NCBI RefSeq assembly: GCF_021044935.1
Contig: NZ_JAJNMP010000002.1
Span: forward strand, 496,001 to 560,000
Origin: Agromyces cavernae
GTDB lineage: Bacteria > Actinomycetota > Actinomycetes > Actinomycetales > Microbacteriaceae
Reading direction: 5' to 3'
Length of the DNA: 64,000 nucleotides
Part shown: piece by piece, positions 48,806 through 55,006 of the stretch
How the letters are laid out: each line of letters begins with the position of its first letter
Position numbering within the stretch: position 1 is the first letter of the stretch
The notes under the pieces: generated by a model
Databases searched by the model: none
What the model saw: only the letters and a program-made list of their open reading frames with translations
Told to the model about the DNA's origin: nothing
Made by a program: the position numbers and the translations under genes

Positions 48806-50755
48806 TCAGACGCGCGGCTGCGGGCGCGTGTCGGTCGAGACCCCCGACTCGGCACCGGCTCCGCGGGCGTGCGGCAGCTTGGACCCGAGCACCATCGCGG
48901 TCACATCGCGGGCGATGTGCTGCGGCGTGAGGCCGACGCGCTCGAGGATGTCACCTCGAGCGCCATGGTCGAGGAACTCGTCGGGAAGACCGAGCTCGGT
49001 GACCGCGGTGTCGACGCCCGCCTCTCGGAGGTCCTGACGGATGCGCGTGCCGATGCCGCCGACGCGGATGCCGTCTTCGAGGCTCACGACGATGCGATAC
49101 TCGGCCGCGAGCTCGACGAGGCTGCGCGGCACGGGGACGACCCAGCGCGGGTCGATGACCGTGGCGCCGATGCCCTGCGCTTCGAGTCGTTCAGCGACCT
49201 CGAGTCCGGTGCCGGCCATCGGTCCGACGGTCACGAGCAGCACGTCCTTGCGCTCGGACTCCACGAGCACATCGACGCCATCGTCGGTGCGACGGACCGC
49301 GTCGTAGTCGACGCCGACGGTGCCCTTCGGGAAACGGAGCACAGTGGGCCCGTCGTCGACCGCGACCGCCTCGCCCAGCTCTTCGGCGAGTCGCACCGAG
49401 TCGCGAGGCGCGGCGATGCGGATGCCGGGCACGACCTGCAGGATCGAGAGATCCCACACGCCGTGATGACTCGGGCCGTCGGGCCCGGTGACCCCGGCAC
49501 GGTCGAGCACGAAGGTCACGCCGGCCTTGTGCAGCGCAACGTCCATGAGCACCTGGTCGAACGCCCGGTTGATGAACGTCGCGTAGACCGCGACGACCGG
49601 GTGGAGGCCGCCGAACGCGAGACCCGCCGCCGACGTCGCGGCGTGCTGCTCGGCGATGCCGACGTCGAGGACACGGCTCGGGAATCGCTCGGCCATGCGG
49701 TGCAACCCGGTGGGCCGCAGCATGGCGGCCGTGATGCCGACGAGGCGGTCGTCGCGCTCGGCGAGACGCACGAGCTCATCGGCGAACACCGAGGTCCACG
49801 ACGGGGCTGAAGGCGACTCGAGCGACTCGCCGGTCTCGGGATCGATCTGACCCACGGCATGGAACTGGTCGGCCGCATCGAGGCGGGCGGGCTCGTACCC
49901 ACGGCCCTTCTCGGTGATCGCGTGCACGATGACCGGTGCTCCGTAGTCCTTCGCCTGGCGAAGCGCCCACTCCATGGCGTGCTCGTCGTGGCCGTCGACC
50001 GGTCCGATGTACTTGATCTCGAGGTTCGAGTACAGCGCCTCGTTGTCGGTGAACCGACTGAGGAACCCGTGCAGGCCGCCGCGAACGCCTCGGTAGAACG
50101 CGCGGGCGGGCTCGCCCATGCGATCGAACGCTCGACGGCTCGACAGGTGCAGGTTGCGGTAGCTCTGCTGTGTGCGCACGGTGTTCAGGAAGCGGGCCAT
50201 GCCGCCGATGGTCGGCGCGTACGACCTGCCGTTGTCATTGACGACGACGACCAGGTTTCGGGTGTTGTCGTCGGAGATGTTGTTCAGGGCCTCCCACGTC
50301 ATGCCGCCCGTGAGGGCGCCATCGCCGACGACGGCGACGACGTGGCGGTCGTCTTGACCCGTCATCTCGAAGGCGCGCGAGATGCCGTCGGCCCACGACA
50401 GCGAGCTCGACGCGTGCGAGCTCTCGACGATGTCGTGCTCGGACTCGGAACGCTGCGGGTACCCCGCGAGACCGCCCGTCGCACGCAACGTCGAGAGGTC
50501 GCGGCGGCCGGTGAGCAGCTTGTGCACGTAGGACTGATGCCCGGTGTCGAAGACGATCGCGTCGCGCGGCGAGTCGAAGACGCGGTGGATGGCGATGGTC
50601 ATCTCGACGACGCCGAGATTCGGACCGAGGTGACCCCCGGTCTTCGACACCGACTCCACGAGGTAGTCGCGGATCTCCCGTGCGAGCTGGTCGAGTTGCT
50701 CTTGACTCAAAGCGTCGAGATCGCGCGGTCCCGAGATGGTCTCGAGCAGGGTCAT
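48806..50755 (-). CDS. dxs: 1-deoxy-D-xylulose-5-phosphate synthase
   Basis: First step of the MEP isoprenoid pathway: thiamine-dependent condensation of pyruvate and glyceraldehyde 3-phosphate. The 649-residue protein has [13 protein letters not shown], thiamine motif [16 protein letters not shown] with NDN, the transketolase pyrimidine-binding region [14 protein letters not shown] (conserved Glu) and [15 protein letters not shown]. The start is ATG 50755 (MTLLETI), the usual place; upstream in-frame sequence is dropped. Confidence 0.97.
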
Positions 50756-50914
50756 GCGGAAACCGCCTTTCACGAAGCCCCGGAAGGGCGGGGCACCCGA
50801 CGATTCTACGCGCCCCGGCATTCAGCTCCCTCGCGCGCTGGCGGGTCCGCGAGGGCGGGAGGAGAATCGGAGACGACGCCTCCGCGGCCCGACGGTGCGC
50901 CGAGAGGGGGCACC

Positions 50915-52096
50915 ATGCGCACCCGACCGCAACGACTCGCGGATGTCGCAGGCTTCAACATCGATCGCGTCGCCGACGCCGCCGGAAGCGATCCGTCAGT
51001 GCTGCGCCTCGAGAACCTCGACACGGATCTGGGTCCGCCGACCGAAGCGATCACGGCCACCATCGCGGCGGCAGGGACGCTCGAGGCGAACTCCTGGCTG
51101 CCGTTCACCGGCAAGCCCTCGATGAAGGAGGCGATCGCAGCACGGGTGGCGCAGCGGTCCGGAGTGGCATACGACCCGGCGACTGAGGTGGTGGTGAACT
51201 CGAGCGACGGGGAGGCCCTGCTCGACGCGCTGCTCGCGCTCGTCGACCAGGGCGACGAGGTCGTGCTCACCGATCCGACGTACGCCGGCCTGCTCAACCG
51301 TGTGCGTCTGGCCGGGGCGGTGCCGCGGCTCGTGCCGCTCCTCTCGGCATACGGCGAATGGCGCCTCGACCTCGACGCACTCGAGCGGGCCGTCTCTGCG
51401 GCGACCCGCGCGATCCTCGTGGCGAACCCGGCGTTCCCGACCGGCATCGTGCTGTCCGACGCGGAGTGGGTCGAGCTCGCGCGCCTCTGCGTCGAACACG
51501 ACATCTGGCTCATCTATTGGGCGTGGATGGAGGGGATCGTGTTCGACGGTCGGCCGATCCGGCACCCCGCATCCCTGCCCGGGATGCGAGAACGCACGAT
51601 CATCGTCGGCAGCGCTTCGTGCGAGCAGCGGATGATCGGCTGGCGACTGGGATGGATCGTCGCGCCCGAGGCGGTCATGCCCGACCTCTCGGTCGTGCAG
51701 ATCTACAACGGCCTCGTCGCCGGGGGCATTGCCCAGGCGGCAGGCGTTGCCGCGCTGACGGCGAGTGATGACGGGCTCACCCGCTGTGTAGCCGAGTGGC
51801 AGCGGCGACGCGATGTCGTGGGTCGCCAGCTCGCCGGACTCCCCATGATCCCTGCCGCAGGCGGATGGTCGCAGCTGGTCGACACCCGCGCACTCGGCGT
51901 GGAGCCTGCCGCGCTGTCGCGAACCCTGATCGAGCACGGCGTCGCGGCGACGCCGATGACTGGATGGGGCGGTGACATCGCCGACCGGCACCTGCGCATC
52001 GTGTTCAGCCGCGAGCCCGAGGACCGCCTCGAGTTGCTCGGCGATCGGTTCGCGGCAGCCCTGCGCGCAGTCGGCGCGGGATCCAGTCTCGGCTAG
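50915..52096 (+). CDS. Class I/II aminotransferase-fold protein lacking the catalytic residues
   Basis: An intact 393-residue protein of PLP fold type I: N-terminal arm, GEALLDALLALV in the glycine-rich loop, DPTYAGL, and the C-terminal domain with R361 (RIVFSREP). However, all four classic PLP-site residues are changed. The Schiff-base lysine of the SxSKxxxMxGWR motif is Cys236 (SASCEQRMIGWR), the pyridine-nitrogen Asp of DExY is Trp202 and its Tyr is Met205 (YWAWME), and the Asn of NPxNPTG is Phe174 (NPAFPTG). It cannot act as a normal aminotransferase. The reading frame is clean, so it may be a pseudoenzyme with a binding or other role. It starts at ATG 50915 behind GAGAGGGGG. It stands alone between dxs and acnA. 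Confidence 0.85.
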   Translation: MRTRPQRLADVAGFNIDRVADAAGSDPSVLRLENLDTDLGPPTEAITATIAAAGTLEANSWLPFTGKPSMKEAIAARVAQRSGVAYDPATEVVVNSSDGEALLDALLALVDQGDEVVLTDPTYAGLLNRVRLAGAVPRLVPLLSAYGEWRLDLDALERAVSAATRAILVANPAFPTGIVLSDAEWVELARLCVEHDIWLIYWAWMEGIVFDGRPIRHPASLPGMRERTIIVGSASCEQRMIGWRLGWIVAPEAVMPDLSVVQIYNGLVAGGIAQAAGVAALTASDDGLTRCVAEWQRRRDVVGRQLAGLPMIPAAGGWSQLVDTRALGVEPAALSRTLIEHGVAATPMTGWGGDIADRHLRIVFSREPEDRLELLGDRFAAALRAVGAGSSLG

Positions 52097-52144
52097 GGTC
52101 CTTTCCGAGCAAACCAGTATGCAGCGCGCGAGGCTGAGAACGAC

Positions 52145-52180
52145 ATCGGCGCACACCCTCGATCGAGGGTGCGCGCCGAT
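52145..52180. terminator. Bidirectional hairpin terminator before the acnA 3' end
   Basis: A 16-position stem (ATCGGCGC-CACCCTC against GAGGGTG-GCGCCGAT with one mismatch) around GATC, between the stop codons of convergent genes. Confidence 0.8.
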
Positions 52181-52192
52181 TCGGATCGTTCG

Positions 52193-55006
<2,814 letters not shown>

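Follow-up and report, generated by a model that had tools for sequence, protein, structure and literature searches.

A conserved clade of lysine-less proteins with a class I aminotransferase fold, probably free of PLP, in Agromyces cavernae and other bacteria

The window, a stretch of 64,000 nucleotides of Agromyces cavernae DNA, was found to contain a gene (50915..52096, plus strand; 393 amino acids plus stop) for an aminotransferase-fold protein that lacks the Schiff-base lysine and, judging from its residues, almost certainly no longer uses pyridoxal phosphate (PLP). The alignments provide good support for a conserved pseudoenzyme without PLP. The favoured reading, with a probability of roughly 0.6, is a conserved stand-alone pseudo-aminotransferase that is free of PLP and binds an amino- or keto-acid-like ligand via Arg361 without transamination. 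A class I-fold clade of this kind, with a rebuilt cofactor site and with living sisters that record the steps, is new here.

The ATG at 50915 was supported by the aligned starts in several orthologues and was directly preceded by a purine-rich, putatively Shine-Dalgarno-like stretch (50902..50910, plus strand). The divergent neighbour (48806..50755, minus strand, with a start codon of our own choice) is taken from its sequence features to be dxs, for 1-deoxy-D-xylulose-5-phosphate synthase, and the convergent neighbour (52193..55006, minus strand) is on the same grounds presumably acn, for aconitate hydratase, its start being uncertain (GTG at 55004-55006, frame open to 55126). A stem-loop without a T run was found between the gene and acn (52147..52178, no strand assigned); the folding of 52097-52200 gave a z of -2.92, with an equally good fold in 2 of 200 shuffles, and the stem-loop may possibly act as a two-way terminator. 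Promoter and terminator scans returned none. The reading frame was open over 49859-52096 (745 codons), reaching upstream across the antisense of dxs, and this long upstream open frame is an effect of the high G+C content.

The preliminary description of this DNA had assigned an intact 393-residue frame to the class I/II aminotransferase fold, and the assignment was borne out. The protein matched the PF00155 (class I/II aminotransferase) profile with 131 bits against a curated cut-off of 19.7, PF00155 and PF01041 were the only Pfam matches at E <= 0.001, and the predicted structure was a confident class I aminotransferase fold. The PDB match of best rank was 1gd9/1gde of Pyrococcus (29% identity), class I aminotransferases in which the Lys, Asp, Tyr and Asn of the cofactor site are all present, whereas the window protein differs. 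The class I aminotransferase fold is intact and the protein is presumably a homodimer. A MocR/GabR-type regulator was rejected as a candidate, as the protein starts at the aminotransferase domain and contains no N-terminal winged helix.

In E. coli AAT, 16 residues surround PLP and ligand according to PMC3823064, and 13 of these were mapped to the window protein via the 1gd9 alignment, with Ile17, Gly38 and Arg292 omitted and with a putative correspondence for positions 61, 123, 204, 233 and 235. The position of the Schiff-base Lys258 was found to contain Cys236 (51620..51622), that of the pyridine-nitrogen Asp222 contained Trp202 (51518..51520), those of Ala224 and Tyr225 contained Trp204 and Met205 (51524..51529), and that of Asn194 contained Phe174 (51434..51436), all on the plus strand. 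The position of the PLP-phosphate loop of aminotransferases was occupied by Ser-Asp-Gly-Glu (codons 97-100; 51203..51214, plus strand). The altered or absent shell positions were 98, 99, 174, 202, 204, 205 and 236. The retained residues were Arg244 (51644..51646, plus strand; the phosphate Arg266), Arg361 (51995..51997, plus strand; Arg386, for the substrate carboxylate), Ser233 and Ser235, together with an aromatic residue at 61 and at 123. The statement that every catalytic PLP contact had been lost therefore went too far, whereas the retention of R361 held in 49 of 49 aligned rows (18 Lys-less and 31 Lys-containing) and that of Arg244 was seen in 18 of 18 Lys-less rows.

Relatives were collected by a genome-contig scan with a three-row alignment as query, of which the best 80 of 341 were kept; the scan requires an exact EQRMIGW or RLENLDTD peptide, and its counts are lower bounds that are biased to the type of the window. 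A scan with a single protein as query gave 40 pattern matches and 0 relatives. Among the best 80 of 341, the lysine was absent in 16 loci (L052-L067) and present in 64 (L068-L131). The 16 loci, the window, an Arthrobacter plasmid copy (L040) and two Agromyces copies (L132 and L133) make up 20 distinct Lys-less genes, which were found in Agromyces, Arthrobacter, Sinomonas, Lentzea and uncultured lineages; unbroken frames were present in 18 of 18 aligned Lys-less rows, which by record title come from several phyla.

At E <= 1e-60, 9 of 60 genomes in the genus sample, own genome included, contained a match, Lys-less in eight and Lys-containing in G733, and with the own genome left out the Lys-less gene was present in 7 of 59. 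The window was the sole orthologue among the 299 genomes of the family sample, own genome included, and the next match had an E of 1.8e-47 and 40% identity. The order sample had the Lys-less form in 2 of 396 genomes and the class sample in 1 of 394, counts that include the own genome; three further matches in the former and four in the latter, within the limits applied, contained the Lys. The phylum sample contained 2 further genomes of 396 at E <= 1e-55, and the plasmid set contained 18 records at E <= 1e-30. The Lys-less gene is rare within the family and the order, and its distribution is patchy. In plasmids of Mycobacterium avium (L044) and M. intracellulare (L047), family copies were found in pieces, adjoined by insertion elements.

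Lysine was aligned with position 236 in none of the 20 distinct clade genes. The position contained L8, I3, M3, F2, A1 and C1 in the 18 aligned Lys-less rows, never a charged residue, and L8, I3, M4, F2, A1 and C2 in the 20 distinct genes, where the letter of L061 is alignment-dependent owing to a one-residue gap next to 236. Position 202 contained W16 and L2 in the 18 rows and W18 and L2 in the 20 genes; the pyridine-nitrogen Asp of this position is generally considered almost invariant among proteins of this fold. The alignment confirmed Cys236 in place of Lys and Trp202 in place of Asp, and the nearest orthologues were of the same kind. As to conservation across orthologues, the Lys-less state and Trp/Leu202 stood, whereas Cys236 did not, as it was present in only 2 of 20 distinct genes; the conserved trait at 236 is an uncharged, mostly hydrophobic residue.

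These residues bear on a non-covalent use of PLP or PMP. ColD is a dehydratase that contains His in place of the PLP Lys and uses PMP, and the retention of Arg244, Ser233/235 and an aromatic residue at 61 in the window protein would agree with such a use. The change of Asp to Trp/Leu, the acidic phosphate-loop residue seen in every one of 18 rows and the presence of L, I, M, F, A or C at 236, with His in 0 of 20 genes, speak against it, and a ColD-type PMP dehydratase was rejected; non-covalent cofactor use in general is considered very improbable.

The comparison of the 18 Lys-less with 31 Lys-containing rows gave 8 of 377 columns without a shared residue, at positions 98, 99, 202, 204, 236, 238, 266 and 374. 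Five of these (98, 99, 202, 204 and 236) lie within the 13 columns mapped to the cofactor shell (Fisher p 1.1e-6, or 2.0e-5 without the group-defining column 236), p values which, the rows being related, reflect how the columns cluster along the protein and not independent events. Position 98 was D/E in 18 of 18 Lys-less rows, whereas all 31 Lys-containing rows and all 64 Lys-containing scan loci had Gly or Ala there; position 99 was Gly in every Lys-less row. Position 204, Trp in the window protein, was Ala in each of the 31 Lys-containing rows, and position 205 was Met in the window protein as in those 31. The change between the groups is concentrated in the cofactor site at 98, 99, 202, 204 and 236.

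In a tree of 71 rows, which omits site columns 61, 99-101, 174, 202, 205 and 236 and keeps columns 98 and 204, the 18 Lys-less rows formed one clade with support 98/97, and the Lys state changed once. The Lys-containing sisters stood beside this clade, and within it the window and L133 were sisters (95/92), both containing Cys236. The sisters, such as Paraburkholderia largidicola BEI73130.1, show 47-55% full-length identity (31 rows), share the RLENLDTD and RMIGWR motifs and are annotated as 'pyridoxal phosphate-dependent aminotransferase'; unlike the window clade they contain Lys in 64 of 64 scan loci and Asn or Asp, not Trp or Leu, at 202.

Among the Lys-containing proteins, position 202 was Asn in 27 and Asp in 22 of the 49 family rows in the tree, and Asn in 38 and Asp in 26 of the 64 scan loci. 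Position 174 contained Met or Ile in 64 of 64 of these loci and position 205 contained Met in 63 of 64, with Ala in L095. Since the Tyr and the Asn were already absent in Lys-containing relatives, their losses are probably older than that of the Lys, and the losses were thus stepwise. Phe174 and Met205 thus do not belong to the coordinated loss that had been proposed; both the Lys and the Asp are absent from the Lys-less clade. A change of Asp to Asn at 202 before the loss of Lys appears likely from the residues, on a tree whose root within the family is not fixed and on which the Asn rows and the Asp rows are both non-monophyletic. The Asn group (38 of 64 loci, e.g. L070:8001-9146), which keeps the Lys and contains Asn for the pyridine-nitrogen Asp, consists of unusual PLP enzymes.

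Selection was estimated by NG86, in which several dS values near or above 1 make the dN/dS values rough. Across 11 Lys-less pairs that exclude the window copy the dN/dS was 0.061-0.228, and it was 0.215-0.289 in three pairs that include it (dxs in the same three pairs 0.084-0.096). The range was 0.087-0.229 for six Lys-containing pairs and 0.044-0.098 for seven dxs pairs. The gene is under purifying selection, similar to that on its Lys-containing relatives and weaker than that on dxs. The dN/dS is far below 1, a result that the preliminary description had named as support for a conserved pseudoenzyme. A decaying, functionless gene whose frame stays open owing to high G+C would fit the faster divergence of the window copy than of dxs and acn and the long spurious frames that are common in the window. 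With a dN/dS of 0.06-0.29 (13 pairs) and unbroken frames in 18 of 18 Lys-less rows, decay is largely refuted and is scarcely credible. As the losses are conserved in one clade (98/97) under purifying selection, the protein fits a fold-type I pseudoenzyme, and the preference of the preliminary description for a conserved pseudoenzyme over decay is supported.

The gene of the window was 68-70% identical to the seven other Agromyces copies, versus 89-93% for dxs and 90-93% for acn, some of these neighbours being covered in part only. The dS was 1.20 for the gene versus 0.65 for dxs between the window and L052, and 0.30 versus 0.62 between L052 and L054; this disagreement suggests exchange of the gene between Agromyces species at a fixed site. 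The gene was found between dxs and acn in four of 14 genus genomes checked (window, G691, G717 and G734), with a further 1.1 kb adjoining dxs in G691, and beside dxs with acn on another contig in G730, whereas in the remaining nine dxs and acn were 111-302 bp apart without the gene between them. The loci L052, L054 and L056 occupied the same dxs/acn site, and the non-Agromyces loci examined contained different neighbours. A link to PLP supply via dxs was dropped, as the gene is beside dxs only in Agromyces.

Beyond dxs/acn in Agromyces, no neighbour shared by the Lys-less genes was found among 12 neighbour types tested, each at <=2 of 18 loci, with a Pfam check of ten representatives and with neighbour genes called by a simple script that gave the wrong strand at some loci (e.g. 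window, L061, L065 and L067). Two Arthrobacter pairs, L055/L059 and L040/L058, shared neighbours, and a PALP-type gene was present near L064 and L067. Near 68 Lys-containing loci, an FCD-type GntR regulator was found at 15 and a gene taken from its sequence to be an APC-type permease at 13; the neighbourhoods across the wider family give a weak hint of amino-acid metabolism. At L049:9080-12803 (= L066, a Nitriliruptorales bin), the Lys-less gene lies downstream, on one strand, of a gene that matches DDAH weakly, one for a class III aminotransferase and one for a PNPOx-like protein.

The neighbourhoods and carrier genomes also bear on the reading as a catalytically inactive subunit in partnership with a normal aminotransferase of the same cell. 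Such a subunit has a precedent in LCB1/SPTLC1, a fold-type I pseudoenzyme without the PLP Lys that is the partner of LCB2 in serine palmitoyltransferase, and the window protein has kept intact the fold of a family of dimers. LCB1/SPTLC1 pairs with a Lys-containing homologue, whereas the 16 carrier genomes searched yielded no close Lys-containing partner and contained one family member each; at E <= 1e-15 a further match was present in 15 of them, at <=37% identity, and in one there was none, several of these genomes being metagenome bins that may be incomplete. Among the neighbourhoods examined, a same-strand aminotransferase nearby was found only at L066/L049 (class III). A paired subunit is accordingly considered improbable, although a distantly related partner is conceivable.

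In the favoured reading of a stand-alone pseudo-aminotransferase, the loss of Lys on one branch, while other family members keep it, would have left the protein unable to form the PLP Schiff base. Asp/Glu98 and the opposing Arg244 may fill the place of the PLP phosphate, since in the model of the window protein the phosphate-loop helix (98-109) starts at residue 98; the predicted model of the Lys-containing L070 (pLDDT 91.8, pTM 0.92) contained a helix at 93-104 in its place. Trp202 and the hydrophobic residue at 236 would occupy the space of the pyridine ring and the Lys. Arg361 might then hold the carboxylate of an amino- or keto-acid-like ligand without transamination, as one retained Arg and analogy suggest, and the protein would serve on its own in binding or regulation.

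A bolder version is offered tentatively, as a possibility at clearly less than even odds, namely that the lineage swapped the cofactor for its own side chains (Asp/Glu98 with Arg244, Trp202 and the hydrophobic 236) and became a stand-alone PLP-free amino-acid-site sensor or catalyst, stepwise from Asn-bearing, Lys-keeping relatives. It is rather unlikely that the protein is an active PLP-free enzyme in which Asp/Glu98, Asp/Glu100, Trp202, Gln238, His359, Glu206, Arg239, Arg244 and Arg361 form a new catalytic centre. In the Lys-less clade near-fixed residues were found at these positions (D/E at 98 and at 100 in 18/18, W202 in 16/18, Q238 and H359 in 17/18, E206 and R361 in 18/18), and the clade varied less than did the Lys-containing rows (0.91 versus 1.29 bits of mean column entropy, uncorrected for relatedness). 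Such residues could, however, serve packing or binding alone, and no PLP-free enzyme with this fold was found in searches of the open-licence literature.

Lys-less relatives of PLP enzymes are already known, LCB1 being one. Another is Rv3778c of Mycobacterium tuberculosis, which belongs to a family of PLP enzymes, lacks the PLP Lys and is described in PMC12910592 as likely non-catalytic and possibly functional. It resembles the window protein, by that description, in the absence of the Lys, but is distant kin to cysteine desulfurases and other beta-elimination enzymes and not to class I aminotransferases (PMC12910592). GntC, a PLP-dependent L-enduracididine cyclase (PMC10367076), gave the top NCBIfam profile for 2 of 4 relatives tested, both Lys-containing, and the third for the window protein, which was rejected as GntC with 181.6 bits against an equivalog cut-off of 415. 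A canavanine/arginine link via GntC and canavanine-gamma-lyase was considered and is unsupported. No description of a Lys-less class I aminotransferase clade was found in searches of the open-licence literature, including passages of PMC12910592 and PMC6522883.

The label of PLP-dependent aminotransferase, given to relatives of the protein in public records, would almost certainly be wrong for the Lys-less clade. The eight columns that distinguish the groups make the difference directly testable at the bench. The family forms a natural series from proteins with both Lys and Asp, through proteins with Lys and Asn, to proteins with Trp and no Lys, and this series could show the order of steps by which a PLP enzyme can dispense with its cofactor and the later use of the fold.
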